A stretch of 32,383 nucleotides of DNA from contig JANXXL010000033.1 in NCBI GenBank assembly GCA_025350625.1, positions 1 through 32,383 on the forward strand. The letters run 5' to 3'. Below, piece by piece: positions 7,374-25,646 of the stretch. The notes under the pieces were generated by a model. It did no database searches, was not told the DNA's origin, and worked only from the letters and a program-made list of their open reading frames with translations. Position 1 is the first letter of the stretch. Each line of letters begins with the position of its first letter. The position numbers and the translations under genes are program-made. The stretch is from Bryobacterales bacterium. Its GTDB lineage: Bacteria; Acidobacteriota; Terriglobia; Bryobacterales; Bryobacteraceae.

Positions 7374-7384
7374 CATTCAGGCCT
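7374..7384 (+). repeat. 11-bp direct repeat CATTCAGGCCT, copy B
   Basis: Second identical copy, just upstream of the start of the 172-residue gene. A near copy with one extra base (CATTCAGGACCT) follows at about 7392-7403. Confidence 0.7.
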
Positions 7385-7437
7385 CACAGCTCATTCAGGA
7401 CCTTGGCCCTCAGCGGCTGACGTCTTGTTGTAGTCGC

Positions 7438-7587
7438 TTAGTTGCGTGGCAACAGTTCGGTAGGATCGACCCATATCCCGCGCGCAGAAGCCAGGCCTTC
7501 ATCGCACCCCAGACGCGCCCATGATCGGTACCCTGCGGCTTCGAGTTCTTGCCAAGCCGAGTCCGTCCAACCAACTCTATAAGCTAC
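7438..7587 (-). pseudogene. Decayed ParE-like toxin remnant
   Basis: Directly downstream of the 58-residue antitoxin, in the frame where a toxin would be expected, the sequence reads VAYRVGWTDSAWQELEA. This is the opening of ParE/RelE-superfamily toxins (AYRV.WT.SA..DLE), but the first codon is GTA, not a start. After about 18 residues the pattern is lost (AGYRSWARLGCDEG...) and the frame stops at 7438, about 49 codons in all against the usual 95-100. Start-codon loss plus truncation or frameshift is the simplest reading. The rest of the gap to 7366 holds small palindromes (GTTGCGTGGCAAC; TCAGCGGCTGA) and no gene I can identify. Confidence 0.5.
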
Positions 7588-7760
7588 GGCTTCATCCGCC
7601 GCTCGATTTCGTCCTCACTCAGGATCTTGCCCTCAGCAGCTTCGCTCCGCCCCCATTCAATTCGCTCGCGAACATAAATGGAGTACTGCACATCCTCCCA
7701 GGTCGCGTTATCGGGAAGGCTCTCGATCATCCGCCGAACCTCTTCTTTTACCGTTGCCAT
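7584..7760 (-). CDS. Small antitoxin-like protein (ParD/RelB-type partner), orphaned
   Basis: 58 residues: MATVKEEVRRMIESLPDNAT then WEDVQYSIYVRERIEWGRSE and ending EIERRMKP. The pattern 'V..MI..LPD.ATWEDVQY.IYVRE.IE.G...A..G..LS.DE..RRM' is a widespread small antitoxin-like family next to ParE/RelE toxins. The TAG is followed in the +2 frame by a decayed toxin start, so this looks like the surviving half of a second toxin-antitoxin pair, oriented opposite to the 6441 pair and about 1 kb away. The start ATG at 7760 lies inside the third copy of the 11-bp repeat. Expression is not proven; no clear Shine-Dalgarno sequence is seen apart from GAGG about 5 bases upstream. Confidence 0.68.
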   Translation of the reverse strand: MATVKEEVRRMIESLPDNATWEDVQYSIYVRERIEWGRSEAAEGKILSEDEIERRMKP

Positions 7761-7768
7761 TCAGGCCT
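7758..7768 (+). repeat. 11-bp direct repeat CATTCAGGCCT, copy C
   Basis: Third identical copy; its first three bases are the start codon of the 58-residue antitoxin on the minus strand. Confidence 0.7.
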
Positions 7769-7807
7769 CTGGATTGATTCTAGCCTTAGCCCGGACCGGG
7801 TGCAGCG

Positions 7808-8434
7808 CTAGCGTCTTACAATCACTTCCCGCAGCCGGTCCCGCGTAAGAAAAAACTTCACGGATTGAAAATCCTGAAATAGTTTCTCCAGGCTTCGGTT
7901 GTTGAAAATCTGCGCCGGTCTGCGTTGCGACCGCGATACCATTTGAATGGTCCGATGATCCTGGATACGGTAGGCATAGGTGGGGATGCTTTCAATGCGC
8001 TCTTCGGTATGGAACAGCGCCAACAGACTCGCCCCGGGCCGCAGCATCCGGTGCAGCTTCGCTACCACGGCCTGCAACAGCGGCGAAGCCAGGAACTGCA
8101 AAGAATCCCACACCAGCGCGCCGTCGAAAGCCCCGTCTTCAAAGGTGAGTGCGAGTTCGAAGAAGTCCGACACCAGGGCCGGGTTGGCTTGATTTTCGAA
8201 GAAATCAGCCCCGTTCGCCGCTGCGGGAGCCTGTCCAAACACACGGTCCAGTTGCCGCACGAAATCGTCCGAATACAAGCGGTGCCCGTAGTTGGTGACG
8301 AAACTGATCGTGGCTTGGCTCACGCCCGCGAAGTCCAGGATGGACAAACCGGGACGGTCTTCGAGCGACACGCAGAACTGGTCCAGACCGTGACTCTGCC
8401 GAGTCTCCGGTCCGCCGGACAGTGCTTGGGCCAC
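7808..8434 (-). CDS. Class I SAM-dependent methyltransferase-like protein
   Basis: 208 residues from a GTG start. Motif I region LSILDFAGVSQATISFVTNY resembles the SAM-binding loop, though the usual GxGxG is degenerate (FAGVSQAT). The following acidic YSDD sits at the end of strand 2, FDGALVWDSLQFL fits motif IV, and HRMLRPGASLLALFHTEE is the post-IV strand and turn typical of methyltransf_11/25 proteins. The C-terminal part (YAYRIQDHRTIQMVSRSQRR) has the substrate-domain look of this fold. The target is unknown. The GTG overlaps the bactofilin TAG by one base (TAGTG), so the two are translationally coupled; a role near the bactofilin scaffold is possible but only inferred. Confidence 0.8.
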   Translation of the reverse strand: MAQALSGGPETRQSHGLDQFCVSLEDRPGLSILDFAGVSQATISFVTNYGHRLYSDDFVRQLDRVFGQAPAAANGADFFENQANPALVSDFFELALTFEDGAFDGALVWDSLQFLASPLLQAVVAKLHRMLRPGASLLALFHTEERIESIPTYAYRIQDHRTIQMVSRSQRRPAQIFNNRSLEKLFQDFQSVKFFLTRDRLREVIVRR

Positions 8435-9024
8435 TACCGCTTGACGTCACCCGCGCCCGCGCCAGCCGCTGCCGCCGGGGAGGAAGGTCCAGCCGAGGCC
8501 ACGGGTTGCGGCTTCGGCGCCCCGACCGGCTGTGCTGCGGATTGCGCCGCCGGCTTGGGAGCTTCCGCGCGCACGATGTCGATCGAGCCTTTGAAGTAGG
8601 CTCCGTCCTCAATCACGATGCGTGCCGTGCGGATGTCTCCAACCACTTTGGCTTCCTTGCGGATGTCAATCTTTTCTCGGGCTTCTATGTTGCCGTGTAC
8701 CGTGCCCAGCACCACAATCTCGCGCGCCTTGATCGTCGCCATCACTTTGCCGTTAGGGCCGATCGTCAGCCGGTGCTCCTGCAGTTCCACGGTGCCTTCT
8801 ACTTCGCCATCGATGGTCAGATCTTCGCGGCCGTAAATCTGGCCCTTGAGGACCACGGACTTTCCTATTATGGCGGCGCCTCCGCGCACGGCGTCACTGC
8901 GGGTATCAGTAGGGCGGCTAGGTAAACTGGACATAGGGATTCCTTCCTTGGCGGGTACGGACGAGGTCGGCGGAGCCGGAGTGGTTCTGGGTGCTGGTTC
9001 TTCTTCTTTTCGGCGATTCCACAT
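8434..9024 (-). CDS. Bactofilin (polymer-forming cytoskeletal protein)
   Basis: 196 residues. A proline- and charge-rich N-terminal tail (about 1-48) precedes the bactofilin (DUF583) beta-helix at about 48-150: AAIIGKSVVLKGQIYGREDL, GEVEGTVELQEHRLTIGPNG, AREIVVLGTVHGNIEAREKI and AKVVGDIRTARIVIEDGAYF follow the repeating G-x(2-3)-G/I-V rungs. A low-complexity A/P/G-rich tail closes the protein. Bactofilins polymerise without nucleotide and organise cell-wall or envelope machinery at the inner membrane. ATG 9024 has a strong Shine-Dalgarno sequence (GGAAGGAGG, about 9 bases upstream). It is the first gene of a two-gene operon with the methyltransferase-like gene. Confidence 0.93.
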   Translation of the reverse strand: MWNRRKEEEPAPRTTPAPPTSSVPAKEGIPMSSLPSRPTDTRSDAVRGGAAIIGKSVVLKGQIYGREDLTIDGEVEGTVELQEHRLTIGPNGKVMATIKAREIVVLGTVHGNIEAREKIDIRKEAKVVGDIRTARIVIEDGAYFKGSIDIVRAEAPKPAAQSAAQPVGAPKPQPVASAGPSSPAAAAGAGAGDVKR

Positions 9025-9120: not shown

Positions 9121-10851
9121 GTGATCCGCGTGCGGCAAATCGCGACTTTAGCGGCCGGTCCTGCCTTGCTTCTCATGGTCTTCGCCTCAATGGCGCTCGC
9201 CGCCCCGGACATCTATCCTCTTAAAGACGTCCGTGCGGGGCAGCATGGCGTCGGACGCACCGTGTTTTCCGGCACTCGCGTCGAAGAGTTTCAGGTTGAG
9301 GTGCTCGGCGTCCTCGAAAACCTCGGCCCCCGCGAATCCATCATTTTGGCGCGGTTGAGCGGCGGTCCGCTCGCGTCGACCGGAGTGATGCAGGGCATGA
9401 GCGGCTCCCCGGTTTATATAGATGGCAAACTGCTGGGCGCGGTGGCCATGGGTTTCCCTTTTTCTAAGGAAGCCATTGCCGGTATCCGGCCTATTGAGGA
9501 TATGCTGCGGGCTTCCCCTCAGCCGCCTAAGAATATCGCGGCCGCGACACCTCGCCGGCAGCCCTTTATGTCGGGTGAAAACCGGCTCGAAGAGATCGCC
9601 ACGCCCGTGTCCTTCTCCGGATTCACCGCCGCCACGCTCGAACAATTCGCGCCGCAACTCCGCCGCATGGGTCTCGACCCGCGTCAAGGAGTTTCCGGGG
9701 GCGGCTCCATCCCGGACCGTCTGGGCGATCCCCGCCAGCTTGAGCCCGGCTCGATGATCAGTGTCCAATTGATCTCCGGCGACATGAACGTTGGCGCGGA
9801 GGGAACAGTCACCGCCATCGACGGCGACCGGGTCTACGCTTTCGGGCATCGATTTCTCGGCGAAGGCTCGACCGACCTGCCTTTCGCCCGCGCCGAAGTG
9901 CTGGCTCTGCTGCCGAATCTTTCGAGTTCTTTTAAAATCTCTTCGGCCCGGGAATGGATGGGGTCCATCACTTCGGATCGCGATACCGCTGTTGCCGGAC
10001 TTACGGGCCGCCAAGCCAGTCTGATCCCGGTCGAGATCCGTGTAGGCCCGCACACCTACCGCATGCGCCTGGTCCAGGACCGCGTGATGACACCGCTGCT
10101 GATGCAAATGGCGGTCTTCTCCGCCATCGATTCCACGCAGCGCAGCGTGGGCGGCCAGACTTATTCCGTGCGCGGACGGCTCGATTTTGACGGCGGGCCG
10201 GTAAGCCTCGACGATGTCTATAGCGGCGATGTAGGAGTCGCAGTGATTGCTTCCGCCGGAATCGGCTCCTCAATCTCCTTTGCCTTGCAGAGCGGGTTCG
10301 ACGCCCTCAAACTCAAGAGCGTTGCACTCGAAGTAGCTCCAGTCGAGCGGCGCAGTGAGCAGAAGGTAGTGGATCTGATGGGCGCTCGCACCGTGCGTCC
10401 CGGCGAAGATCTGGAACTGACTGTCGTGCTGGCCGGCGCGAACGGCCAGGAGACTTCGCGCCGTATTAAATATCGCGTTCCCATCGGGACGGAAGCCGGC
10501 ACGCTGAACTTCACTATCGCCGATGCCACCGCCACCAACGTGATCGAATTTCAATCCGCCGTCGCGACGCCGCAGCGCTCGCCCAACCAGGTGTTGGGTC
10601 TCTTGAACGGTCTGCGCTCCAACACCAAAGCGTATGTCCGCGTCTGGCGCGCTGAACCCTCCTACACGGTCGAGGGCCGCGACATCCCGGACCCGCCGCC
10701 CTCGCTCGCCATGGTTCTCAACCGCGCTCAGGCCGGCACTCCGAATTTAGTGAACACCCGTGGCGCAAAAGTCGCCGAAATTGAAGTGCCCGGCGCACCC
10801 GGTTTCGTAGTCACCGGCACCAAGACCATTCAGGTTGAGGTGAAAGAGTGA
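9121..10851 (+). CDS. SpoIVB-like (S55 family) serine peptidase domain protein
   Basis: 576 residues from GTG 9121. A signal peptide (core LAAGPALLLMVFASMALA) predicts a secreted or periplasmic protein. Residues about 31-125 hold the Ser block: VRAGQHGVGRTVFSGTRVEE, then GVMQGMSGSPVYIDGKLLGA, matching the GMSGSP nucleophile motif of S55 peptidases (Ser94 in GMSGS). Residues about 222-260 hold GTVTAIDGDRVYAFGHRFLG, which resembles the GTLTF...ALGHGI His block of SpoIVB (His243 here). In SpoIVB the His block comes first, so the order looks swapped. SpoIVB cuts the SpoIVFA regulator during sporulation; no sporulation is implied here and the substrate is unknown. The C-terminal half (about 400-576) looks beta-rich and non-catalytic. 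The last four bases (GTGA) overlap the next start. Confidence 0.85.
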   Translation: MIRVRQIATLAAGPALLLMVFASMALAAPDIYPLKDVRAGQHGVGRTVFSGTRVEEFQVEVLGVLENLGPRESIILARLSGGPLASTGVMQGMSGSPVYIDGKLLGAVAMGFPFSKEAIAGIRPIEDMLRASPQPPKNIAAATPRRQPFMSGENRLEEIATPVSFSGFTAATLEQFAPQLRRMGLDPRQGVSGGGSIPDRLGDPRQLEPGSMISVQLISGDMNVGAEGTVTAIDGDRVYAFGHRFLGEGSTDLPFARAEVLALLPNLSSSFKISSAREWMGSITSDRDTAVAGLTGRQASLIPVEIRVGPHTYRMRLVQDRVMTPLLMQMAVFSAIDSTQRSVGGQTYSVRGRLDFDGGPVSLDDVYSGDVGVAVIASAGIGSSISFALQSGFDALKLKSVALEVAPVERRSEQKVVDLMGARTVRPGEDLELTVVLAGANGQETSRRIKYRVPIGTEAGTLNFTIADATATNVIEFQSAVATPQRSPNQVLGLLNGLRSNTKAYVRVWRAEPSYTVEGRDIPDPPPSLAMVLNRAQAGTPNLVNTRGAKVAEIEVPGAPGFVVTGTKTIQVEVKE

Positions 10852-13079
10852 CCTTCGCGGCCCGCGTAGCTTTATCCGGCGTCCTAGCGGCTTGCGTCTC
10901 TTTCGCCGCCACTACGGCCACCTGGGAGCTCAACGGCTATCAGGACTTCCTGCGCGGCCGCATGAGCGGCCTTTCGCTCACTCGCGACGGCCTGCTGGTG
11001 CTCGGTCCCAAATTAGACACCGTTTTTGCTTCCGATCAGGCTGAGATATGGAGCGTGGCCGCCGCTTCCGACGGCTCCCTCTACCTCGGCACCGGCAACC
11101 GCGGCCGCCTGCTTAAAGTGGACCCTGCGGGCAACGGCGCCACGGTCTGGACTTCCGATCAGCCTGAAATTTTTGCGGTTGCAATCGATCGCGCGGGCGT
11201 CGTCTATGCCGGCACCTCGCCCGACGGCAAGGTATATCGCATCGAGAACGGCCGTGCGACTGAATTCTTTTCTCCCGGCGAGCGTTACATTTGGGCGCTG
11301 GCCTTTGCTCCCGATGGATCGCTCTACGTAGCCACCGGACAGCAGGGCAAGATCTATCGGGTTACTGCCGCGGGCCGCAGTGAGGTCTATTATGAGACCG
11401 GTCAGTCCCATGTCACCGCGCTGGCTTTCGACCGGGAAGGCCGCCTGCTCGCGGGCAGCGAACCCAACGGAATTCTGTACCGCATCACCGGCGCCCCGGC
11501 TCGCGGCTTCGTGCTCTACGACGCGAACCTGCCGGAAATCCGCAGCATCGTCCCGGCTGCCGACGGTTCCATTTACGCCGCGGCTCTCGGGGGGAGCCTG
11601 GCGAAACGCACCTCCGCCGCATCCAGTTCGTCATCGCTCACCACGCCCACCCTCACCGCTCCGGGCACGAGTATTACGGTCACCGACGCCCAAGCCGGCC
11701 TCACCACCGCGCCCAAGCCCGATCCCACTAAACCCTCGACCGGCACCTCGCCCATCACCGCTCCCGCCACCGCCACCGAAGTTTCCGGAGTCGAGCGCTC
11801 GGCGCTCTATAAGATCCTGCCCGACAATACCGTCGAGACCCTGTGGACTTCAAAGGAAGAAAACATCTACGACGTGGTCGCCGACGCGGGCGGCACCCTT
11901 ACGTTTTTGACGGACGCCCAGGGCCGCGTCTACCGTCTCGACCCGCGCCCGGATCGCACCCGCGACGCCACGCTCATCGCCCAGACCAACGAGGCCGACG
12001 CCACCCGCCTGACCGCCACTTCGCGTGGTCTTTTGGTCGCTACCGGCAACGCCGGAAAAATGTTGCGGTTGGACCCCTCAGCGACGACCGTGGGCTGGTT
12101 CGAGTCACCCGTTCATGATTCCGGAACCGTGGCGCGCTGGGGCCGCCTGGCTTGGGTGGGGAGCAAGGGGGTCGCGTTCAAAACCAGGGCGGGGAACTCT
12201 GCCCGCCCCGACGCCACCTGGAGCGATTGGTCAGAGTCTATCGTCGACCCCGCCAAGTCTCTGATCGCCAGCCCCAACGCGCGCTACATTCAATGGCGTG
12301 CCGAGTTCACCGGCGCTGCCGGCGCTCCGCCGGATCTCGACAGCGTCACCATCGCTTATCGCACGCAGAATACGCCGCCGTCTATCCGCAGCATCACGGT
12401 CTCGGCGCAACCGTCCGCCGCTGGCGCCGCGAAGAATGCGATCTCCGGAGCTTCGTCGGCTTTCACCGTGACTGTCACCGACACGGGAGATGCTACTACC
12501 GCCGCCGGGACGCAGGGACAAACCCTCCCGCGCCCCGCCGGCCAACAGCTCCAGATCTCCTGGCAGGCTGACGACCCCGACGGCGACAAGCTAATTTACA
12601 GCCTCTACTTCCGCGGGGAAGACGAACGCGAATGGATACTGCTGCGCGCCGACATCGCTGAGAACACCTACCTTCTCGATGGCGACGTGCTCGCCGACGG
12701 CCGCTATTACTTCCGCGTCATCGCCTCGGACCGCCCCTCGAATCCCGCCGATCAAGCCCGGCAAGCGGAATTGACCGGACCGCCGGTTTTGATCGACAAC
12801 ACTCCGCCGGTAGTCACCCCCAGCGCCCCGCGCCGCAACGGTGCCGCGGTCGAAATCGATGTCGATGCGCAGGATCGCGGTTCCATACTCCGCCGCTGCG
12901 AATATTCGATGGACGCCCGCCCCTGGGTGCCGGTCGAAGCCGTGGATGGCGTCACCGATTCCGCCCGCGAACAATTTCGCATCCGCATCGAAAACTTCCC
13001 GCCCGGCGAACACCTGATCGTCATCCGCGCGTACGATGTCGCGGGCAACGCTGGACTCGCCAAGGTAGTGGTCCGCTAG
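10848..13079 (+). CDS. Secreted seven-bladed beta-propeller protein with C-terminal Ig-like domains
   Basis: 743 residues from a GTG that overlaps the S55 peptidase stop (GTGA), so the pair is probably translationally coupled. An N-terminal signal peptide ends near VSFAA. About seven propeller repeats follow the pattern I-x-A-x-A-x(3)-G-x-L/V-Y-x-G-T-x-x-x-G-x-V/L-Y-R: examples are SVAAASDGSLYLGTGNRGRL, AVAIDRAGVVYAGTSPDGKV and ALAFAPDGSLYVATGQQGKI. Blades 5 and 6 are split by a Thr/Pro/Ala-rich linker (about 265-315). From about 505 onward the sequence looks like fibronectin/Ig-type beta domains (DDPDGDKLIYSLYF; EHLIVIRAYDVAGN). A binding or scaffolding role outside the cytoplasm is likely; it may present substrates to, or be a partner of, the peptidase, which is inference from the coupling only. 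Confidence 0.82.
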   Translation: MTFAARVALSGVLAACVSFAATTATWELNGYQDFLRGRMSGLSLTRDGLLVLGPKLDTVFASDQAEIWSVAAASDGSLYLGTGNRGRLLKVDPAGNGATVWTSDQPEIFAVAIDRAGVVYAGTSPDGKVYRIENGRATEFFSPGERYIWALAFAPDGSLYVATGQQGKIYRVTAAGRSEVYYETGQSHVTALAFDREGRLLAGSEPNGILYRITGAPARGFVLYDANLPEIRSIVPAADGSIYAAALGGSLAKRTSAASSSSSLTTPTLTAPGTSITVTDAQAGLTTAPKPDPTKPSTGTSPITAPATATEVSGVERSALYKILPDNTVETLWTSKEENIYDVVADAGGTLTFLTDAQGRVYRLDPRPDRTRDATLIAQTNEADATRLTATSRGLLVATGNAGKMLRLDPSATTVGWFESPVHDSGTVARWGRLAWVGSKGVAFKTRAGNSARPDATWSDWSESIVDPAKSLIASPNARYIQWRAEFTGAAGAPPDLDSVTIAYRTQNTPPSIRSITVSAQPSAAGAAKNAISGASSAFTVTVTDTGDATTAAGTQGQTLPRPAGQQLQISWQADDPDGDKLIYSLYFRGEDEREWILLRADIAENTYLLDGDVLADGRYYFRVIASDRPSNPADQARQAELTGPPVLIDNTPPVVTPSAPRRNGAAVEIDVDAQDRGSILRRCEYSMDARPWVPVEAVDGVTDSAREQFRIRIENFPPGEHLIVIRAYDVAGNAGLAKVVVR

Positions 13080-13263: not shown

Positions 13264-13794
13264 ATGAAAAACAGATTCTTACTTGCAAGTGTATTATCCG
13301 CCTTCGCCCTCACCGGAGTTGCGAACGCTCAGACCGGCTCTGGAACCCTCGGCGTTACCGAAACCGTTGCGGGATCCATCAACTTGACTTTCCTAACCGA
13401 CGCTAGCGGCCTGGCAGTTACAGGTACCGGAACTAGCACCGCTTCCTTGCCGTTTGGAACAGTAAGTATGTATGGCGGTACGGTGCCGGCAAATGTGACC
13501 AAGACGGTCAATGGCACTACGTCATTTAGCGTAGCCACGCCGTTCGACGTTAAGGTAGATCTGGCCAATTCCGCGAGCGCGACCTTTATTCTGACTGCTA
13601 CGCTGGCCACGCCGGATGCCACCAATGTTTGGTTAATTGGTGCAACTGATATCTCCGACGGTGGCGCGGCCCAACTGACTGCGACTGGCGCGTACGCGAC
13701 AGCCGCCCCTTACACTCTGCACCTCACCACACCGCGTACCGCAGCGGCTGGTCTGATCTCGAACTCAATCGGCTTCACCGCGGTCGGCAACTAA
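13264..13794 (+). CDS. Secreted fimbrial/coat-like subunit 1
   Basis: 176 residues. Clear signal peptide MKNRFLLASVLSAFALTGVA with cleavage after ANA. The mature protein is small, Thr/Ala/Ser-rich, cysteine-free and predicted all-beta. It aligns by eye with the 13857 product: ASLPFGTVSMYGGT versus ASLDLGRVSYFRGT, FSVATPFDVKVD versus FVISTRFALKVD, and C-termini AAGLISNSIGFTAVGN versus PAGTIGSTVAFAATLNR. The alternating hydrophobic final strand fits a pilin-like or spore-coat-U-like subunit, but the sequence is not close to a named family I can state. It opens an operon with a second subunit, a PapD-like chaperone and a large barrel. A strong hairpin after its stop suggests it is made in excess over the downstream genes, as expected of a major structural subunit. 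Confidence 0.72.
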   Translation: MKNRFLLASVLSAFALTGVANAQTGSGTLGVTETVAGSINLTFLTDASGLAVTGTGTSTASLPFGTVSMYGGTVPANVTKTVNGTTSFSVATPFDVKVDLANSASATFILTATLATPDATNVWLIGATDISDGGAAQLTATGAYATAAPYTLHLTTPRTAAAGLISNSIGFTAVGN

Positions 13795-13815
13795 TTCGAT
13801 TCCGCAAAAACGCAT

Positions 13816-13845
13816 ACTGGCTGGGCCAAAACAGGTCTAGCCAGT
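13816..13845 (+). terminator. Strong hairpin between the two subunit genes (partial terminator or stabiliser)
   Basis: Arms 13816-13827 (ACTGGCTGGGCC) and 13834-13845 (GGTCTAGCCAGT) pair over 12 bp with two G-U wobbles around a 6-base loop, followed by TTGGTGTTT. The tail is only moderately T-rich, so attenuation or 3'-end protection of the subunit 1 message is as likely as full termination. The next gene starts 11 bases later. Confidence 0.65.
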
Positions 13846-13856
13846 TTGGTGTTTGG

Positions 13857-14399
13857 ATGACCTCCCAGTGCGCGACTCTATTTCGAGTAGCAATGTTTGC
13901 GCTGCTTGCCAACTCCGGGGCATTCGGCCAACCAGCCGGTACCCCGCGAATGGTTACACCGGTGGTAGTAAATCCCGCAGCGCCCACGATTACGATTCTC
14001 CCAGCCGCGACCGGCGCGATGCTGCGAAACCAGGGAACCCGGAATGCCTCGCTCGACCTCGGGCGAGTTTCCTACTTCCGAGGGACTTCGGCGCCGGGGC
14101 AGAGCATCCGGAAGCAGCCCGGTGCGTTCGTGATCTCCACGCGGTTTGCGCTCAAGGTCGATTGTCCGGGAAGTTCGTCATCGTCGAGAGTGAATGTGAC
14201 TATGTCGCGGCTGGATGCTGCCGACTTGCACGCAATCAGCATCGACGGGACCCCGGTAAGATCCTCGGAGCAGACGCTAGTACAATCCATGCCCTGCGGC
14301 TCCGCAGGCGAGCACCGGCTGGAGGTGGCGGTTCCGGTTTCCACGCCCGCTGGAACGATAGGCAGTACCGTCGCCTTCGCGGCGACTCTCAATAGGTGA
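13857..14399 (+). CDS. Secreted fimbrial/coat-like subunit 2 (paralogue of the 13264 product)
   Basis: 180 residues; signal peptide with core VAMFALLANSGAFG and likely cleavage before QPAG. The mature part shares the scaffold of subunit 1 (ASL..G.VS...GT, F...T.F..KVD, and a closing beta-strand with the A-G-x-I pattern). Unlike subunit 1 it carries two mature cysteines (in KVDCPGSS and SMPCGSAGEH), which could form a disulfide in the periplasm. The N-terminal mature extension (VTPVVVNPAAPTITILPAA) is beta-prone and might act as a donor strand, which is inference. It has no good Shine-Dalgarno sequence; initiation at ATG 13857 or ATG 13893 is possible. It sits 3 bases before the chaperone-like gene. 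A minor or tip subunit is a plausible role. Confidence 0.68.
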   Translation: MTSQCATLFRVAMFALLANSGAFGQPAGTPRMVTPVVVNPAAPTITILPAATGAMLRNQGTRNASLDLGRVSYFRGTSAPGQSIRKQPGAFVISTRFALKVDCPGSSSSSRVNVTMSRLDAADLHAISIDGTPVRSSEQTLVQSMPCGSAGEHRLEVAVPVSTPAGTIGSTVAFAATLNR

Positions 14400-14402
14400 C
14401 TT

Positions 14403-15215
14403 ATGAAACTAACAACTACGACTGCATTGATATCTTTTGCTGCGCTGTGGCCTATCGCAACCGCACAGGCACCGGCGGACGCGCCCGCCGATGAGTCCGC
14501 CCGGCCACAAGCGTCCCTGGCGCTGACGCCCGCCATCATTATGGTGCGCGGAAGGCCGGGGCAGAGCAGCACCCAAACCCTGACCATCGTGAATCATACA
14601 GCCAACGAAGTCCGCTTCAAGCTGGTGACCGAAGATGTGGTGGTGAAGGACGGGAAGCGGTCGTTCTCCGCCGCCGGGCTGATCGCCGATGGCATCGCGG
14701 CGAGTTCGGTGGCATCGCCCGCTTCCGTAGTCGTGAAAGCCGGCGAAGAGGCATCGGTGCAAGTGACTCTCACTCTTCCACCTCAGACCGGGCAGCGCGC
14801 CGTCGTCACTTTCTTTCGGGGCGGCTTGGTTGATCCGGGCAACGGCGCGATCGGCCTGGGCGCTTCCCTGGGAACGCTGATTACCTTTAACGTATCGAGC
14901 GATTACCAGGTGGCAGCAGGACCCGTCGCAGCCTCGCTCCAAACCCCTGCGGCAAATGTGATTCTTTCCGAAGAGCTGCGCAACATCGGCTCTGAACCGG
15001 TCGTGCCCCTGGGGGTAATCGTGATTCTGAATGCGTCCGGGAAGCGGGTGGCCAAAGCGTCTTTCACTCCGCAGCGCCTGTTGCCGGGCGAGCGATTGAC
15101 TTTTGCCGCCACCAATCCGGCGCAATTGCCGCCCGGTCGTTATCGAACGCTGTCTTCTTTTGAATTTGAGGGGAAAGTTATGACGAGTGCCGGGGAATTT
15201 GCAATTCCGGAATAA
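14403..15215 (+). CDS. PapD-like periplasmic chaperone
   Basis: 270 residues with an N-terminal signal peptide ending near TAQA. Residues about 38-140 read like the first Ig domain of pilus chaperones: SLALTPAIIMVRGRPGQSST, QTLTIVNHTANEVRFKLVTE, then ASPASVVVKAGEEASVQVTL and GQRAVVTFFRGGL. These correspond to the 'v.P.rv.l..g......l.v.N....p....v...' and 'sP....l.pg....vri' blocks. Residues about 155-265 form a second beta domain (RNIGSEPVVPLGVIVILNAS, LLPGERLTFAATNPAQLPPG). The role would be to cap and stabilise the two subunits encoded just upstream before assembly. ATG 14403 has AGGTGA right upstream, shared with the preceding stop. The conserved Arg/Lys pair of classical chaperones cannot be assigned with certainty by eye. 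Confidence 0.72.
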   Translation: MKLTTTTALISFAALWPIATAQAPADAPADESARPQASLALTPAIIMVRGRPGQSSTQTLTIVNHTANEVRFKLVTEDVVVKDGKRSFSAAGLIADGIAASSVASPASVVVKAGEEASVQVTLTLPPQTGQRAVVTFFRGGLVDPGNGAIGLGASLGTLITFNVSSDYQVAAGPVAASLQTPAANVILSEELRNIGSEPVVPLGVIVILNASGKRVAKASFTPQRLLPGERLTFAATNPAQLPPGRYRTLSSFEFEGKVMTSAGEFAIPE

Positions 15216-18200
15216 ACGGCCGGGTCCTTTAGGATTCGTTTCGCTGTGGCTGGTCGCGTGTTGCTTCACGCTGCCGGCGCAGGTTGTTCATAAAGTCGAT
15301 CCGCAAAAGACCGTCACCTTTGAAGTGGCCGGGGCCAGCGCCGCTTACAGTCTCGACGGCTCGCTCGCGGAAGCCAACGCCGAGAAGGGCGTAGTCTCGG
15401 TGACGGGCAAGCAACCCGGCGCTACCCATGTGGTGGTGGTCACGCCAGCGGGAGTCCAAACCTTTGAAGTCCAGGTGACCACGCCGCCCCCGCATTATCC
15501 CCCCGGCTTCGAGATGCCGGTAAGCGGCGCAGAGGGGGCCCAGAGCGGATATGTTGAAGGCCGCTACTATTCCACCCCGGCACAGATTCAAACGCAGCTC
15601 GACTTCGTCAAGATTCACGGCGACGACCGCACCCATGTGCACCTGGTAGAAACCAATTTGCTGGAGCCGCTTGACCAGGATCGGTCCCGAATCGCACTAT
15701 CCTCCGCCAGCTATCAAATCGTTACGCCGCGCCGTGACATCACACTGTTCGATAAGTATCTGGACGAATCCCAGCTCACCATTAATGGTTCGATCGTCCG
15801 CGGACTCCACTTTGCCCAGGACAACTGGTTTGTGCACGCGGGCTACACCAGCATCGCGACCTTTGAAGGGCTGTTTCTGCCTACCCAGCCCGAGCTGGTT
15901 ATCGGCGGCGGATACCGTAAGACGCTCACCGCGAATTCTTCGCTCACCGGTTCCTTTTATCAAGTGCGAATTCCCGCGTCGGATCTGTTGGGGCATTCCG
16001 GAAGCATCGGCGATGTGAGATACAAGTACGCTCCACGGGAAAACTTCTGGTTCACTGCGGATCTCGGCATCAGCCGCGGAATCGCAGGCGCAGGGCAGCT
16101 CTATTACCGGACCGAGCGCGATAGTATCACAGCCTTGGTCCGCTACATGCCGGAACAGTTTGCGTCCCTGGGCGCTAACAATTTTCGAGGCCTCCATACT
16201 GACGTTTCCTGGACCCGGCACGCCACCCCCAAATTCGAGTCGACGGCCACGTTCTACAACAACAATGTAGTGCTTCCGAATTTAAAGGAGACCACCATAT
16301 CAGGCGCGCTCAACCTGCGCTATCAGCTCACGCGGCGCTGGGCGGTTACCGGAGGCGCGATCGCGTCGACCTTCCAAACCCAGCTCCCACCGAGCGCCGC
16401 GATTCGAAGTTTCACATTACCCGCAGGGCTCGCTTTCCAGTCGCGGCATTTCGGGGCCAGCGGCCAATACCAGTTCGCGGTGACGCCCGGTCGCGAAAAC
16501 GGCAGCCAGCAGTCGCGGGTTTCCCTACATTCCGGATGGGGGGCGTTCAACTTCACCGGCTACGGCGAGCGCGATACCAACGCCCCAACGTTGAGTTTCA
16601 TCTTCGGCCAGGTAGCGGGATTGCAGCAGCTTCTGGCCCAGCAGGGCATTCAGGCGATCACTGTCCAGCAAATAGACCAGCTTTTGTCCAGCAACTCATA
16701 TCTGATCGCGGCCGGTTACATCAAGGGCGCCAGCATCAATCTGGTTCCGGTGCGAACCCAGCTCGGCGGAACGGCGGATTGGTCCAGCCGGGGCGCGCAT
16801 CGGAAGCAATTGAGTTACAGCGTTCTTTACAACAACAATCAGATGCTGCAGGGAAGCACGCAAGACCTGATCCATACGATTTCCTACTCTCAAAGGATCA
16901 CGCGCGCGGACGATATCTCGGCGGCGTGTTCGCTGCAGGGAGTGAAGAATCCCGGCAGCCCCCTGTTATATACGCCGGTCTGCTTCGTTGCCTGGAGGCA
17001 CCAGTTCGAACACGTTCCTTATTTGATAATCCCCGAACGCCGGGGCACCATCGCAGGAAAGATTTTTCGGGACGACCGTTCCTCGGGAGCTTGGGAGCCG
17101 GGCATGCCTCCCGTCGCCGAAGTCGAGGTGATGCTCGACGATCACCGGACAGTGTTGACCCGCGCTGACGGGTCTTACCGGTTCTCTAACGTGACCCGCG
17201 GGACCCACAGAATCGCGGCCAAATACCACTCGACGAAGCCGTTTTTCTTCACCACCGCTGCCGACACCAGCGTGGCGGAAAACGCCACCGTAAATTTCGG
17301 GATCGGCTACTCGCTATCCGGTTTAACAGCGCAGGTGCTGAACGACGCTGGTCAAGGGGTGCCCGGTGTCACGGTGTTGATCGCGGGAAAAGGACGAAAG
17401 TGGAGCGCGGTGACGGAGGGGGACGGCAGCTTTTTCCTGTCGGCGCTCGAAGCCGGCGACTACGGCGCGCAGGTCGATGAGGATTCGCTGCCTGTGGGTT
17501 ATTCCACGAAAGCGCTCATCGATCTGCCCAGCGTAACCGTGGGCGCTTCTTCGCCGGGCCGGGCCGCGTTCACGGTGCGCGCGCTCCGCAGCATTTCGGG
17601 AAGAGTTGTGCGCTACGACACTACGGCCTCCACTTACGTTCCCGTGGTGGACGCGAAAGTAGGTTTGCGGGAACCCGGTTTAACCGCCACCACCGACGTC
17701 GCTGGACGATATCTCTTCCGCGACCTGCCAATGGGAACGTACACCATATCCGTTCAGAATCAGGATGCCACGCCAGCCCGCACCGTTCGGCTGGGCGCGC
17801 TGCCGGTCGATTTGCAAAATATCGATTTTCAGATCAGCAAGCCCGGCACTCCTGATATACCGGCTGCCACAGTTGTACCTTCGGTCCGAACCGCAACCGC
17901 GCCCGCCAGACTCTCGGCGCAACAACACAATTCCGTGGGGCGCCAGCTCATTACAGCGGGCCGGTACGCGGAGGCCATCTCCGAACTGACCAAGGCCCTT
18001 CGCGTCGACCCGGATTTTGCCAAGGCACTGAACGCCCGCGGCTTTGCGCTCGCACTAACGCATGACTGGACCGGCGCCCTTGCCGATCTCAACCGCGCGA
18101 TTCAGGTTGATCCGCGATATGGGGACGCCTACAAGATTCGTGCAAACGTCAGGAGAAGCATGGGCGATGCGGCCGGCGCCGTGGCGGACTTAAGGAATTC

Positions 18201-18219
18201 TCAACAACTGGGCCGTTGA
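15187..18219 (+). CDS. Large outer-membrane barrel with pilus-assembly N-terminal domain, Cna-B-like repeats and TPRs (usher-like)
   Basis: 1010 residues from GTG 15187 (29-base overlap with the chaperone gene; TTG 15199 is an alternative). A signal peptide (LGFVSLWLVACCFTLPAQ) is followed at about 35-100 by a beta domain like the T2SS/T3SS pilus-assembly N-terminal domain of secretins: KTVTFEVAGASAAYSLDGSL, GVVSVTGKQPGATHVVVVTP, AGVQTFEVQVT. Residues about 110-615 alternate aromatic and polar residues like a large barrel. Three carboxypeptidase-regulatory/Cna-B-like domains follow (about 618-700, 708-795 and 802-880; for example TRADGSYRFSNVTRGTHRIA). TPR helices close the protein (about 910-1008; GRYAEAISELTKALRVDPDF). 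Position after chaperone and subunits matches an usher, but the sequence is not that of the FimD/PapC family as far as I can see. An alternative is a general surface-layer or adhesin exporter. Confidence 0.65.
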   Translation: MPGNLQFRNKRPGPLGFVSLWLVACCFTLPAQVVHKVDPQKTVTFEVAGASAAYSLDGSLAEANAEKGVVSVTGKQPGATHVVVVTPAGVQTFEVQVTTPPPHYPPGFEMPVSGAEGAQSGYVEGRYYSTPAQIQTQLDFVKIHGDDRTHVHLVETNLLEPLDQDRSRIALSSASYQIVTPRRDITLFDKYLDESQLTINGSIVRGLHFAQDNWFVHAGYTSIATFEGLFLPTQPELVIGGGYRKTLTANSSLTGSFYQVRIPASDLLGHSGSIGDVRYKYAPRENFWFTADLGISRGIAGAGQLYYRTERDSITALVRYMPEQFASLGANNFRGLHTDVSWTRHATPKFESTATFYNNNVVLPNLKETTISGALNLRYQLTRRWAVTGGAIASTFQTQLPPSAAIRSFTLPAGLAFQSRHFGASGQYQFAVTPGRENGSQQSRVSLHSGWGAFNFTGYGERDTNAPTLSFIFGQVAGLQQLLAQQGIQAITVQQIDQLLSSNSYLIAAGYIKGASINLVPVRTQLGGTADWSSRGAHRKQLSYSVLYNNNQMLQGSTQDLIHTISYSQRITRADDISAACSLQGVKNPGSPLLYTPVCFVAWRHQFEHVPYLIIPERRGTIAGKIFRDDRSSGAWEPGMPPVAEVEVMLDDHRTVLTRADGSYRFSNVTRGTHRIAAKYHSTKPFFFTTAADTSVAENATVNFGIGYSLSGLTAQVLNDAGQGVPGVTVLIAGKGRKWSAVTEGDGSFFLSALEAGDYGAQVDEDSLPVGYSTKALIDLPSVTVGASSPGRAAFTVRALRSISGRVVRYDTTASTYVPVVDAKVGLREPGLTATTDVAGRYLFRDLPMGTYTISVQNQDATPARTVRLGALPVDLQNIDFQISKPGTPDIPAATVVPSVRTATAPARLSAQQHNSVGRQLITAGRYAEAISELTKALRVDPDFAKALNARGFALALTHDWTGALADLNRAIQVDPRYGDAYKIRANVRRSMGDAAGAVADLRNSQQLGR

Positions 18220-18260
18220 AATCGCTTGCCTTTGTTCCCCTGAATCGGCTAAAGTTCTTC

Positions 18261-18755
18261 ATGCTCAAATTTTCCGTTGTCCCCTTGACCGGCCTCCTGC
18301 TGTTGGCGGGCTGCAATAGCGCTCCTCCGCCAGCCGCGGCTCCAGCGGTGGATGTGGCCGCCGAGCAGTCCAAAATCCGCGACATCGAATCCGGCTGGGT
18401 GCGGGAAGCCGCCGCCAAAGATGTCGAAAAGGCTGCGGGGCACTACACCGATGATGCTGTCTTAATCATCAGCGGTTCGCCCGCTGCCAAAGGTAAGGAC
18501 GCCATCCGGGGCGCTTGGAAGGCGTTGCTCGAAGACCCCAACGTCAAACTTACCTTTTCAGCCGACCGTGTCGAGCTCAGCGCGTCGGGCGACATGGCCA
18601 CTACCAAGGGCTCTTACACTTTGACTGTCACCAATCCTAAGACCAAGAAGCCCATCGAGGACAAAGGCAGCTACCTGACGGTCTATAAGAAGCAGGCCGA
18701 TGGCAGTTGGAAGGTGATCGAGGACGTGACAGCTTCGGAAATAGCGCCCAAATAG
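18261..18755 (+). CDS. Lipoprotein with SnoaL/DUF4440-like domain
   Basis: 164 residues from ATG 18261. The N-terminus MLKFSVVPLTGLLLLAGCNS is a textbook lipoprotein signal with lipobox LAGC. A short Pro/Ala linker leads to an NTF2-like fold: IRDIESGWVREAAAKDVEKA, HYTDDAVLIISGSPAAKGKD and AIRGAWKALLEDP, then YLTVYKKQADGSWKVIEDV at the end, the DUF4440/SnoaL pattern. Such domains bind small ligands, often without known catalysis. The frame is open back to TTG 18216, overlapping the barrel gene, but only the ATG gives the lipobox at a normal position. It follows the barrel gene by 41 bases and may be co-transcribed with it. Confidence 0.85.
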   Translation: MLKFSVVPLTGLLLLAGCNSAPPPAAAPAVDVAAEQSKIRDIESGWVREAAAKDVEKAAGHYTDDAVLIISGSPAAKGKDAIRGAWKALLEDPNVKLTFSADRVELSASGDMATTKGSYTLTVTNPKTKKPIEDKGSYLTVYKKQADGSWKVIEDVTASEIAPK

Positions 18756-21521: not shown

Positions 21522-22847
21522 ATGCACAAACTTTTCATTTATATAGCTTTAGCGGGTCTTGGGCCACTCCTGGCGCAAACGCACCCCTCTCCGCGGAAGC
21601 TCTCTCTCGACGAAGCGATTCAGCTCGGTTTGAAGAATAATCTGCGCGCTTTGCAGGCCGAAACCAACAACAGTTCGGCGCGGATTGAGCGCATCCGCGC
21701 GCTGAGCGCTTTGCTGCCCACGGTGAACGGGAGCCTGGGCGAATACGTCCAGGAAAATAACCTGGCGACTTTCGGATTCCGTTTCCCTGGAGTTCCCAAT
21801 ATTATCGGTCCCTTTGGCTATTCCGACATCCGCGCGTCGGCTTCGATGAATCTTGTCGATTGGTCGGCGCGCAAGAATCTGCAAGCAGCCGGGCAGAATC
21901 AAAAGGCCACGGAACTCACTGCCCAAGACGCGCGCGACCTGGTAGTGGAGGCGGTAGCCAATTCCTACCTGAGCATCATTGCCGCCGGCGCGCGCGTCGA
22001 GGCGGCCCGCTCGGAGGTTTCCACCGCCCAAGCGCTCTATGAGCGCGCCCGCGATCAACACGCCGCCGGAGTCTCGCCCGCCATTGACGAGTTGCGTTCG
22101 CAAGTGGAGTGGCAAGCTCGCCAGCAGCAGCTATTGGCCTCCCAGAATCAGTTTGCGAAAGATAAACTTGCGCTCGCTCGCGTCACCGGCCTGCCGCCTG
22201 CGCAGGACTTCGACTTATCCGACACGGCGCCTTATGGTCCGCTCGAAGACCTCGCGCCCGAGCAGATGCTCGATCGCGCGCACCAGTCGCGCGGCGATTA
22301 TCTCAGCCTGAAGGCGCAGATCCAAGCCGCAGAAACCGCCCGCGAAGCCGCCCTCGCTGAGCGCTATCCCAAGCTTGCGCTCGAAGGAAACTACGGGGCC
22401 AATGGCGTGAACGTAGCCCAGTTGCATCCTACTTTCGCCTTCGCCGGATCGATCAAAGTCAACGTTTTCGACGGCGGCCGTATCCACGCCGATATTGCAC
22501 AATCCGATGTAACGATTCGCCAGCGCGAAGACGAAATCGCGGACCTGGACCGAAAGATCGACGTCGACATCCGCTCGGCATTGCTGGATCTTAAGTCGAC
22601 TCAGGAACAGGTTGCTGTGGCCCAACGCAATCTGGAAGTCGCTAGCGAAGCCCTGACCCAGGCGCGCGACCGCTTCGTCGCCGGGGTTACCGATAACATC
22701 GAGGTGGTTCAGACGCAGGACGCTGTCGCCAACGCCCAGGAAACTGTCATTTCCAGCATGTATGCGCACAATCTGGGGAAAGTCGCACTCGCGCGCGCCA
22801 TCGGGATGACCGAAATGAATTTGAAGCAGTTTATGGGGACCAAGTAA
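21522..22847 (+). CDS. TolC-family outer membrane efflux protein
   Basis: 441 residues with a signal peptide (MHKLFIYIALAGLGPLLAQ). The start of the mature protein, KLSLDEAIQLGLKNNLRALQ, is the standard outer-membrane-efflux motif. Long alternating helices follow with two pseudo-repeats (about 25-220 and 235-435), including AAETAREAALAERYPKLALE and the second-half helix SEALTQARDRFVAGVTDNIE. It would form the trimeric outer-membrane duct of a tripartite pump. AAGGGA lies 7 bases upstream of ATG. Its TAA is directly followed by the ATG of the fusion-protein gene, so duct, adaptor and pump are encoded in order as one operon. Confidence 0.95.
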   Translation: MHKLFIYIALAGLGPLLAQTHPSPRKLSLDEAIQLGLKNNLRALQAETNNSSARIERIRALSALLPTVNGSLGEYVQENNLATFGFRFPGVPNIIGPFGYSDIRASASMNLVDWSARKNLQAAGQNQKATELTAQDARDLVVEAVANSYLSIIAAGARVEAARSEVSTAQALYERARDQHAAGVSPAIDELRSQVEWQARQQQLLASQNQFAKDKLALARVTGLPPAQDFDLSDTAPYGPLEDLAPEQMLDRAHQSRGDYLSLKAQIQAAETAREAALAERYPKLALEGNYGANGVNVAQLHPTFAFAGSIKVNVFDGGRIHADIAQSDVTIRQREDEIADLDRKIDVDIRSALLDLKSTQEQVAVAQRNLEVASEALTQARDRFVAGVTDNIEVVQTQDAVANAQETVISSMYAHNLGKVALARAIGMTEMNLKQFMGTK

Positions 22848-24041
22848 ATGAAAAAGATCATCGGACTGGCAGTCGTGGCGATTCTGATCGGCGGCGGGTA
22901 CTACGTATGGCAGGAAATGCAAAAAAGCGAGAGCACGGACGACGCCGAAATCGATGGAAACGTCATCTCTATCAGCGCACGTGTGCCCGGTCACGTGACC
23001 GAAGTCCTGGTCGAGGACGAGCAGTTTGTTAACAAAGGCGATGTGCTGGTAAAACTCGATCCCAAGGATTTCGAGATTGCCGTCGAACGCGCCCAAGCCG
23101 ACTTGAACAATGAGCTCGCCAACCTGCAAACTTCGCGCAGCGATGTGCCGCTGGCCACTGCTACCACCGGTAGCGCGTTAAATGGAGCCAAATCCACCAG
23201 GCAGGAGGCTGCCGAAGCCATTACCTGGGCGGAACAGCAGCAGAGCGTTGCGCAGGCTCGTGTGAGTTCCGCGCAAGCCAATGTAAAAGTGGCGGAAGCC
23301 AATGCTACCAAGGCCGCGCAGGATGTCCAGCGCTATCAGGCCCTGGTCGCGAAGGACGAAATTTCAAAGCAGCAGTACGACCAAGCGGTAGCGGCTTCGG
23401 AAGCCGCCAAGGCTACGGTGGAGGCGCAGAAAGCGGCCGTGGTCGAAGCGCAACATGGAATCTCCGCGGCGGGAATCGCGATCGAGCAGGCTCGCGCGAA
23501 ACTGGGACACGCTGACGCCGAAGTGCAAAGCGCCATGACCGGTTCGCAGCAGGTCGCGATCACTCAAACCAAAGTTTCGGTGGCGCAGGCGAAAGTAGCG
23601 CAGCGCCAGGCGGATCTCGACCAGGCCCGTTTGAATCTCGAATACACCAGCATTGTTGCGCCTGCCAGCGGCATCATCGGCAAGAAGAACATCAACGTGG
23701 GACAGAACGTGGCCGCCGGCCAGCAGATGATGGCCATTGTTCCCATCGACAATCTGTGGGTCACTGCGAACTTCAAGGAAACGCAGCTCAAGAACATGCG
23801 GACGGGGCAAAAAGTAAAACTTAGTGTGGACGCTTACGGGCGCGATTATAGCGGAACCATCGAGCGTATCGCCGGCGCGAGCGGAGCCAAGTTCAGCCTG
23901 CTTCCGCCCGAAAACGCCACCGGAAACTTCGTAAAAGTTGTCCAGCGCATCCCCGTGCGCATCGCTTTCGATCCCGGCCAGGACCAGGATCATATCCTGC
24001 GCCCCGGAATGTCGGTGGTGCCTTCGGTACGTGTGCGCTAA
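22848..24041 (+). CDS. emrA: Membrane fusion protein, HlyD/EmrA family
   Basis: 397 residues. One N-terminal membrane helix (IIGLAVVAILIGGGYYVW) is followed by STDDAEIDGNVISISARVPG, the signature of EmrA-type adaptors (T-D-D-A-x-V/I-x-G). The first lipoyl half ends at KGDVLVKLDPKDFEIAVERA, a long Ala/Gln-rich coiled-coil hairpin spans about 80-250, and the second lipoyl half and beta-barrel include YTSIVAPASGIIGKKNINVG and NLWVTANFKETQLKNMRTGQ. It links the inner-membrane pump to the TolC-like duct. The ATG abuts the previous stop; the next gene follows after 6 bases. Confidence 0.95.
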   Translation: MKKIIGLAVVAILIGGGYYVWQEMQKSESTDDAEIDGNVISISARVPGHVTEVLVEDEQFVNKGDVLVKLDPKDFEIAVERAQADLNNELANLQTSRSDVPLATATTGSALNGAKSTRQEAAEAITWAEQQQSVAQARVSSAQANVKVAEANATKAAQDVQRYQALVAKDEISKQQYDQAVAASEAAKATVEAQKAAVVEAQHGISAAGIAIEQARAKLGHADAEVQSAMTGSQQVAITQTKVSVAQAKVAQRQADLDQARLNLEYTSIVAPASGIIGKKNINVGQNVAAGQQMMAIVPIDNLWVTANFKETQLKNMRTGQKVKLSVDAYGRDYSGTIERIAGASGAKFSLLPPENATGNFVKVVQRIPVRIAFDPGQDQDHILRPGMSVVPSVRVR

Positions 24042-24047
24042 CGTCGC

Positions 24048-25646
24048 ATGAGCACTGTCGCCGACCCCATCGAAATCGCCGCTGTGCCCGAGTGGCGCCC
24101 GCGCTTTAACCCGTGGGCCATCGCCATGACGGTTACGCTCGCAACCTTCATGGAGGTGCTCGATACCAGCATCGCCAACGTAGCCTTGCCGCACATCGCC
24201 GGCAATCTTTCGATCAGCCAGGATGAAGCCGCTTGGGTGCTTACTTCGTACCTGGTGGCCAACGCGGTTATTCTGCCGATCAGCGCGTGGCTCTCGACAA
24301 AGTTCGGTCGCAAACGCTTTTACATGACGTGCGTGGTGCTGTTTGGCATCAGTTCGCTGATGTGCGGGCTGGCTCCGAACCTGCCTGTGCTAGTCTTCTT
24401 CCGAATCTTGCAGGGATTGGGGGGCGGCGGCCTCGCGCCCACTGAACAAGCCATCCTGGCCGACACCTTCCCTCCCGAAAAGCGCGGACAGGCATTTTCG
24501 GTGTACGCGATGGCAGTGGTGGTGGCGCCAGTGATTGGTCCCACGCTTGGCGGCTATATCACCGACAACTTCAGTTGGCGCTGGCTGTTTCTAATCAACG
24601 TGCCGGTGGCCATCGTATCGCTGGTGCTGAGCGCGCGCATGCTCGAAGACCCGCCATTTCTTGAGAAGATGCGCAAAAAAATGTTCTCGGTGGATTACGT
24701 CGGCCTGGGCCTGCTCGCCACTGGAATCGGCTGCCTGCAAGTGGCGCTCGATAAGGGCGAGCGCGAAGATTGGTTCGCTTCGAGCTTCATCGTCAGCTTC
24801 TCCGTGATCGCCTTGGTGGCGCTGGTAACCGCGATTATCTGGGAATATCATCACCCCAACCCCGTGCTCGACGTGCGCCTCTTCAAGAGCAGGAATTTCT
24901 CGGTCGCCTGCATCATGATGTTCATGCTGGGCGCGTCCTTATATGGCGCGACCGTGCTGATCCCGCAGCTTCTGCAAACGCTTATGGGTTACACCGCGCA
25001 GCAGGCCGGTATGGTGCTTTCACCCGGAGGTTTGGTGATCATCGCGACCATGCCCTTTATCGGCTGGCTGCTCAGCAAAATGGACGGGCGCTGGCTGATC
25101 TTGTTCGGCTTCTCCAGCACGGCCCTGGCTCTCTACCACATGACCAACTGGACGCTCGAAATCGATTTCAAGACCGCCATGATGTATCGCGTTTACCAGT
25201 CGATTGGCATGGGTTTTCTGTTTGTGCCGATCCAGACTCTGTGTTATATCGGCATTCCGCAGGAAAAGAACAACAATGTAAGCGGCATGACGAATCTCGC
25301 GCGCAACCTGGGCGGCAGCCTGGGTATTTCCGCGATCTCTGTGATCGTTTCGCGGCGCGCGCAATATCACCAAAGCGTGCTGGCTTCGCATACCAGCCAG
25401 TACGACTCCACCTTCCAGCAAAGCGTATCGGGGCTCACGCAAACTTTTCAGACGCTGGGCTCGGACGTGACCCACGCCACCACCATGGCGCACCAGATGC
25501 TTTATAACGCAATGCAGCGCCAAGCCGCGCTGTCAGGGTACATCGATGCGATCTTCGTTTTCTCAATAATCTGCGCTGTGATGGCCCCCGCCGCGTTCTT
25601 GATGCAGAAGCCCCAGAAGGGCGTGAAAGCGCGGAGCGGGCACTAA
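24048..25646 (+). CDS. emrB: DHA2-family MFS drug exporter, EmrB-like
   Basis: 532 residues with about 14 membrane helices, the DHA2 (14-TMS) layout. Motifs: FMEVLDTSIANVALPHIAGN in helix 1, SAWLSTKFGRKRFYMTCVVL as MFS motif A between helices 2 and 3, RILQGLGGGGLAPTEQAILA in helix 4, and PVIGPTLGGYITDNFSWRWL as motif C in helix 5. A hydrophilic loop before the last helix (about 455-500) is typical of EmrB. Driven by the proton gradient, it would expel hydrophobic drugs or toxins through the adaptor and duct encoded upstream. Its stop overlaps by 3 bases the stop of a convergent HicB-like frame. Confidence 0.95.
   Translation: MSTVADPIEIAAVPEWRPRFNPWAIAMTVTLATFMEVLDTSIANVALPHIAGNLSISQDEAAWVLTSYLVANAVILPISAWLSTKFGRKRFYMTCVVLFGISSLMCGLAPNLPVLVFFRILQGLGGGGLAPTEQAILADTFPPEKRGQAFSVYAMAVVVAPVIGPTLGGYITDNFSWRWLFLINVPVAIVSLVLSARMLEDPPFLEKMRKKMFSVDYVGLGLLATGIGCLQVALDKGEREDWFASSFIVSFSVIALVALVTAIIWEYHHPNPVLDVRLFKSRNFSVACIMMFMLGASLYGATVLIPQLLQTLMGYTAQQAGMVLSPGGLVIIATMPFIGWLLSKMDGRWLILFGFSSTALALYHMTNWTLEIDFKTAMMYRVYQSIGMGFLFVPIQTLCYIGIPQEKNNNVSGMTNLARNLGGSLGISAISVIVSRRAQYHQSVLASHTSQYDSTFQQSVSGLTQTFQTLGSDVTHATTMAHQMLYNAMQRQAALSGYIDAIFVFSIICAVMAPAAFLMQKPQKGVKARSGH

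Follow-up and report, generated by a model that had tools for sequence, protein, structure and literature searches.

A candidate divergent chaperone-usher operon in a Bryobacterales genome of the Acidobacteriota

Usher loci are commonly found through the Pfam model Usher (PF00577), and in the fibres that ushers secrete the tip subunit needs no donor strand. In the Csu pili, as set out in PMC9452303, each subunit's N-terminal Gd strand goes to the preceding subunit, and the usher C-terminal domains (CTD1-CTD2) hold the base of the fibre. Another point of comparison is WxLIP, which is predicted to insert a hairpin strand into WxL (PMC10599100); the accessible portion of that text contains neither the term "chaperone" nor the term "donor strand". 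Here we describe a four-gene operon on contig JANXXL010000033.1 of a Bryobacterales bacterium (assembly GCA_025350625.1, positions 1 to 32,383, the whole stretch being called the window below), and we consider it likely that it encodes a divergent chaperone-usher pathway making a donor-strand-linked fibre. The four consecutive plus-strand genes (13264-18219) proposed in an initial annotation were all recovered as open reading frames (ORFs), with the following features:

13264..13794, plus strand: subunit 1, stalk-type (A), 176 residues; probably exported and Ig-like; by eye, the signal peptide ends near residue 23
13339..13374, plus strand: putative N-terminal donor strand of subunit 1, residues 26-37, SGTLGVTETVAG
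13857..14399, plus strand: subunit 2, tip-type (B), 180 residues; paralogue of subunit 1 lacking the donor-strand pattern
14403..15215, plus strand: two-domain PapD-like periplasmic chaperone by profile homology, 270 residues
14844..14888, plus strand: stretch inside the chaperone gene with an alternating pattern read from the sequence, in a conserved region; role suggested by PapD homology
15187..18219, plus strand: putative usher-like outer-membrane barrel protein, 1010 residues
15274..15486, plus strand: N-terminal domain of the barrel protein, about residues 30-100, PF13629-like (pilus/secretin N), at the position of the usher N-terminal domain (NTD)
15499..17040, plus strand: predicted beta-barrel region, residues 105-618, from a crude strand count and family relation
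16585..16755, plus strand: conserved insert in the barrel, residues 467-523, helix-like by eye, candidate gate
17029..17322, plus strand: D1, first CarboxypepD_reg-like sandwich, residues 615-712, additional to the usher plan
17308..17832, plus strand: D2-D3, residues 708-882, counterpart of usher CTD1-CTD2 by a collinear hhalign match
17899..18201, plus strand: C-terminal tetratricopeptide repeats (TPRs), about residues 905-1005, from Pfam; accessory

Chaperone and subunits

A 20-member profile of the chaperone family matched six canonical archaic chaperones, taken from usher-bearing loci, with a probability of 97.6 and E 3.4e-12 over 216 columns (reversed control P 0.63; hhalign values throughout are for a database of one), in agreement with the PapD-like two-domain chaperone of the initial annotation. 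The match was also obtained with the three remote members removed (E 1.9e-6) and with the six close members only (E 5.9e-6). A broad hidden Markov model of the chaperone with remote members added (A12) recovered five of seven canonical chaperone loci at 1e-3, i.e., L061 (1.3e-11), L067 (3e-9), L068 (1.7e-8), L062 (5.2e-7) and L064 (4.2e-4), where L numbers denote loci. By these family profiles, the chaperone and the canonical archaic chaperones are homologues; in Pfam, the window chaperone itself gave weak Ig-like domains, with fn3_5 at 7.2e-5, below cut-off.

The two window subunits, for which Pfam returned nothing informative, are 23% identical, and their families are paralogous as had been proposed (profile A against profile B, P 1.4e-19; reversed 0.14). 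We divided them into A and B on the basis of position and similarity. In A rows a strand directly follows the signal peptide, with strong hydrophobic residues at three alternate positions at frequencies of 0.95, 0.86 and 0.91, against 0.38, 0.15 and 0.15 in B rows, and a strict donor pattern was found in 19 of 22 A (stalk-type) rows and in 0 of 13 B (tip-type) rows. Canonical archaic subunits from the phylum (L061, L063, L064) have a similar N-terminal layout. The last subunit before the chaperone in L045 (L045:7379) was grouped in A and fails the donor pattern, and the chaperone-adjacent subunits of L042 and L047, outside the alignment, are without it by eye.

Barrel protein and proposed assembly

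The profile of the barrel-protein family (A5) matched archaic ushers at E 2.1e-7, and archaic ushers together with K-12 FimD at a probability of 96.6 and E 5.3e-10 (580 columns; the reversed control gave 0.17 and the TonB receptor control 0.21). This signal sits in residues 708-882, where D2-D3 is collinear with usher CTD1-CTD2 (P 1.3e-9, 150 columns, reversed 0.35; D2 against CTD1, 1.3e-4). A crude strand counter gave 24 strands at the threshold where archaic ushers score 24, or 23 once FimD is included, which is weak evidence; together with the family relation it suggests that residues 105-618 form a barrel.

The architecture given in the initial annotation held in part: Pfam recognises CarboxypepD_reg (5.6e-18, three stretches), SdrD_B and TPR (1.1e-10), whereas the barrel itself is a prediction and the TPRs do not belong to the core. 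Only 3 of 13 family barrels carry C-terminal TPRs, and three other members carry SPOR instead; the TPRs were therefore rejected as a defining part and, on this distribution, are an accessory of one sub-lineage. The secretin-like pilus N-terminal domain ("pilus formation protein N", PF13629) is weak in the window protein (0.02) and was seen at E 0.1 in eight of the 13 members, four of them above the Pfam cut-off (best 1.4e-7). A helix-like insert spans 57 residues without gaps in all but one of the 13 members, the exception being L042 with 56. Sequence searches of the PDB gave no convincing match: one yielded none at all, and the others had best E values of 0.057, 0.19 and 0.011.

We postulate that signal peptides, as read by eye, would direct the subunits to the periplasm, and that each subunit would be an Ig-like domain held by the G1 strand of the PapD-like chaperone. 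The barrel protein would lie in the outer membrane, where its periplasmic domains may recruit chaperone-subunit complexes and from where the fibre would be secreted. By homology, D2-D3 could act as CTD1-CTD2, while the pilus-N-like domain would stand in for the usher NTD, as the helix-like insert may for the plug. Subunit 2, lacking a donor strand, would begin the fibre as its tip, and copies of subunit 1 would come next, each donating its N-terminal strand to the subunit before it.

Gene order and distribution

The order of subunits, chaperone and usher, as originally read in the window, is also that of its relatives. Among 16 distinct close loci (the window, L014, L015, L016, L017, L026, L037, L038, L039, L041-L045, L047 and L048), at least two subunit genes lie 5' of the chaperone in all 16, and the barrel lies 3' of it in all 15 with enough DNA (the contigs of L047 and L048 end inside the barrel gene, and just 421 bases are left in L038). 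The flanks differ: 138 flanking ORFs in 14 loci gave only six cross-locus pairs matching at 1e-10, most of which look like response regulators by eye, and a regulator that looks NarL-type by eye is common to the flanks of L014, L016 and L043. Because the 16 loci keep their order while the flanks differ, the operon order is beyond chance. Chaperone and barrel distances correlate as well (r 0.91, 0 of 5000 permutations, 13 loci), a correlation that shared descent confounds.

Within this plan the loci vary: an additional subunit-chaperone pair is present in L014 and an additional subunit 3' of the barrel in L016, L037 and L038 carry four subunits each, and L042 carries a two-domain subunit (6360-7385, plus strand). 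The remote locus L027 has, at the subunit place, a 380-residue protein that is two-domain by eye (7475-8614, minus strand); in both proteins a donor-like strand is seen by eye between the domains, like two-domain tip adhesins. The barrel gene of the window has a GTG start and a 29-base overlap with the chaperone gene; its protein start, MPGN, is common to L014 and L015, with MRGN in L016.

Directly 5' of the operon, a SpoIVB-peptidase-like protein (S55, 5.1e-7; 9121-10851, plus strand) overlaps a beta-propeller-like protein (10848-13079, plus strand). At the 3' side, a SnoaL/DUF4440 protein (18216-18755, plus strand), whose leader looks lipoprotein-like by eye, overlaps the barrel gene end by four bases and is possibly co-transcribed with it. 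Further 3' lie an efflux set of consecutive OEP, HlyD-type and MFS proteins (21522-25646, plus strand) and a 1138-residue TonB-like receptor (25831-29247, plus strand) that has CarboxypepD_reg at its N-terminus and an OMP_b-brl_4 barrel.

Could the putative usher, then, be an ordinary TonB-type receptor or porin that lies by chance beside a chaperone operon? The genome has 76 CarboxypepD_reg matches, the TonB-like protein of the window itself joins that domain to a receptor barrel, and L017 shows a weak OMP_b-brl match (0.053). However, the sandwiches are C-terminal here, no TonB Pfam match occurs in the 13 members, the barrel profile does not match the window TonB-like protein (P 0.25) and the barrel adjoins the chaperone gene in every close locus with room (15 of 15). 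Identity as a TonB receptor, which the initial annotation had named among the outcomes that would overturn it, is rejected on present evidence, there being no Pfam or profile match, and we regard a chance neighbour of this kind as extremely improbable.

The operon is rare and patchy within its own family. Counting the window's own genome, the barrel search was positive for 2 of 247 phylum genomes and, within the family, for 4 of 150. The chaperone profile (A1) had matches in 4 of 237 genomes of the family and in 8 of the 396 searched across the phylum; in two of those eight, G208 (L030) and G442 (L031), no such operon was found on their short contigs. One scan of genome contigs with the single barrel sequence found no relative. 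In its own genome (417 contigs, 89% complete) the barrel is single-copy, the remaining matches being TPR or sandwich pieces. The chaperone alignment, searched against named genomes, gave 13 loci, three of them already in the set (L036, L040, L046); ten come from Acidobacteria groups, one (L042) from Eremiobacterota, one (L044) from a Moraxellaceae bin and one (L048) from a Ramlibacter bin. As the last two lie on contigs of 5.8 kb (L044) and 4.6 kb (L048) that may be misbinned, neither Moraxellaceae nor Ramlibacter is claimed.

A wider branch emerged from A12 in combination with D123, a profile of the C-terminal domains made from A5 only, and A8, a profile of canonical ushers. A12 gave 28 matches in 26 of 297 Acidobacteriota genomes, and a D123-positive ORF lies on the same strand at 26 of the 28 loci; two of these ORFs are canonical ushers (L061, L067) and 24, the window included, are non-canonical, the weakest being L146 (D123 ORF 971 bases upstream, weak CarboxypepD_reg at 6.5e-5). 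The remaining two loci are L150, with weak Pfam SdrD_B and CarboxypepD_reg matches only, and L149, on a truncated contig. D123 also recovers four of seven canonical usher loci (2.1e-6 to 1.9e-7). A8 misses 22 of the 24 non-canonical barrels (L133-L136, L141 and L142 having been compared by this profile only), and L144 (8.4e-6) and L147 (6.9e-4) match both A8 and D123. The group of L144, L145 and L147 matches ushers over 694 columns (P 2.1e-6) and A5 at the C-terminal domains (3.3e-7), with no match to the A5 barrel region (P 0.15) and no clear usher NTD (0.17) or plug (0.066). No Pfam Usher match was seen in the 18 of 24 non-canonical barrels scanned.

Individual loci show further variants of the barrel gene. 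In L139 (3289-5838, minus strand) and L140 (7255-10413, plus strand) an N-terminal domain like copper-amine-oxidase-N (PF07833; 1e-7 and 0.0085) replaces the pilus-N domain. The 1312-residue barrel of L151 (1649-5587, minus strand) has four SPOR stretches and adjoins a PapD-like chaperone and a DUF4402 subunit, and L102 has a short barrel ORF (2570-4213, minus strand; 547 residues) 541 bases from the chaperone.

Class assignment and comparison with known systems

Several results weigh against a chaperone-usher pathway and are gathered here. The window chaperone alone reaches only P 0.014 against canonical chaperones, and the core 17 chaperones reach P 0.3 against FimC alone (canonical profile against FimC, 7.5e-5), so that the chaperone link needs the family; A12 misses two of seven canonical chaperone loci (L063, L066). 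The donor pattern is absent from three of the 22 A rows, the second chaperone of L014 comes after an A-type subunit, and subunits match archaic subunit profiles weakly (best P 3e-5, partly via the signal peptide). For the barrel protein, the profile check against ushers that succeeded with archaic ushers plus FimD failed with FimD alone (P 0.13), the whole of A5 against CTD1 alone gave only 0.0034, the barrel region alone is weak against ushers (P 0.0016) and D123 misses three of seven canonical ushers (L063, L064, L066). Generic CarboxypepD_reg domains from the same genome (20 domains out of 30 loci) gave P 4e-6 with usher CTD2 and 0.027 with CTD1, and the CTD2 resemblance is therefore partly generic; single-sequence FimD itself misses archaic CTD2 (0.066). 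None of the 13 barrels matched Pfam Usher (PF00577), PapC_N or PapC_C, the window protein being scanned to E 1 and the other twelve to E 0.1, in keeping with the earlier remark that the protein is not recognisable as a FimD/PapC type. The usher NTD was undetected (P 0.3) in a test that is blunt, since the K-12 FimD positive control reaches only 0.0016, and the plug was undetected (P 0.07) where the same control reaches P 5e-8.

Two class assignments have to be weighed against these results. A plain archaic operon of spore-coat-U type that differs by sequence drift only would account for the homology of the chaperone and of the C-terminal domains, and for a donor strand like that of archaic subunits. 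Pfam, however, does recognise PF00577 ushers in Acidobacteriota (present in 8 of the 119 genomes making up a smaller sample) and not these barrels, and the NTD and plug went undetected; we think drift alone very unlikely. The spore-coat-U (SCPU) Pfam model matched 0 of 10 subunits scanned at E 1, and because PF00577, NTD, plug and SCPU were each looked for and not found, we did not file the operon in the archaic class. The "separate type" of assembly system suggested in the initial annotation is not supported in that form: given the profile ties of the chaperone and D2-D3 to archaic systems, and the intermediates L144 and L147, the operon appears better described as a very divergent branch.

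Remote chaperones point in a further direction. WxLIP_PGBD (PF06030) matches L100 at 3.2e-6, above cut-off, and L029 (3e-5) and L103 (4.2e-5) below it, with weak WxLIP_HBD matches in L027 (0.17) and L103 (0.035); above cut-off, PF06030 occurs in 1 of 149 phylum genomes. The loci could thus encode a coat or anchor like WxL/WxLIP, in which the two-domain protein would tether subunits singly to the cell surface or to peptidoglycan and the barrel would serve for anchoring or export, with no polymer formed. The chaperone-like protein of L100 (412-1869, minus strand; the same gene as L102 4754-6211, minus strand) has AMIN (1.2e-10) after its PapD/WxLIP part, and this, with SPOR on several barrels, suggests peptidoglycan contact; the strand insertion predicted for WxLIP (PMC10599100) would also fit. 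Yet the WxLIP_PGBD segment matches PapD_N too (L103 3.9e-4, L100 0.01), the chaperones of L144, L150 and L151 match PapD_N and not WxLIP, and Pfam found no WxLIP_PGBD in the window chaperone, which stops after its second domain and, by eye, carries no C-terminal helix. No subunit scanned had a WxL Pfam match, and the donor-like strand of A subunits would most simply mean polymerisation. We therefore judge a polymer-free coat unlikely and retain the fibre-forming chaperone-usher pathway.

The overlap of WxLIP_PGBD and PapD_N is a lead to common descent, short of proof. A tentative extension, which we regard as possible rather than probable, is that PapD chaperones and Gram-positive WxLIP form one donor-strand chaperone superfamily with this operon in a large diderm intermediate branch, whose ushers would have acquired a pilus-N-like domain in place of the NTD and a helical gate in place of the plug, with the pore tied to peptidoglycan via SPOR, AMIN or other tails. 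The operon may point to a large, undescribed branch of surface-fibre machinery. If the loci assemble fibres, many such systems are unannotated in Acidobacteriota, and the branch could show the origin of the chaperone-usher pathway and its relation to WxLIP. In open-licence literature, usher combined with carboxypeptidase regulatory and chaperone yielded, by title, only type IX secretion work, and nothing was found joining usher, DUF4402 and chaperone, which does not show that such loci are unpublished.

Among described systems, the Gram-positive WxL/WxLIP (DUF916-DUF3324) cluster shares with these loci tandem Ig-like domains partnered with small beta-proteins, PF06030 matches in remote relatives and a strand insertion that is predicted there and proposed here; unlike that cluster, the operon has a putative outer-membrane barrel, and the window chaperone has no C-terminal transmembrane helix by eye. 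The classical FimC/FimD type 1 system has the same general plan and a PapD-family chaperone, but FimC and FimD as single sequences are unmatched by the operon-family profiles. The likeness to the archaic (sigma-type, Csu-like) pathway extends to the order of subunits, chaperone and usher, the PapD-like chaperone, the donor-strand-like subunit N-termini and two C-terminal sandwich domains following the barrel. The operon differs in lacking PF00577, a detectable NTD or plug and subunits with a spore-coat-U Pfam match, and in having a pilus-N-like N-terminus, a helix-like insert, the extra sandwich D1 and an optional TPR or SPOR tail.

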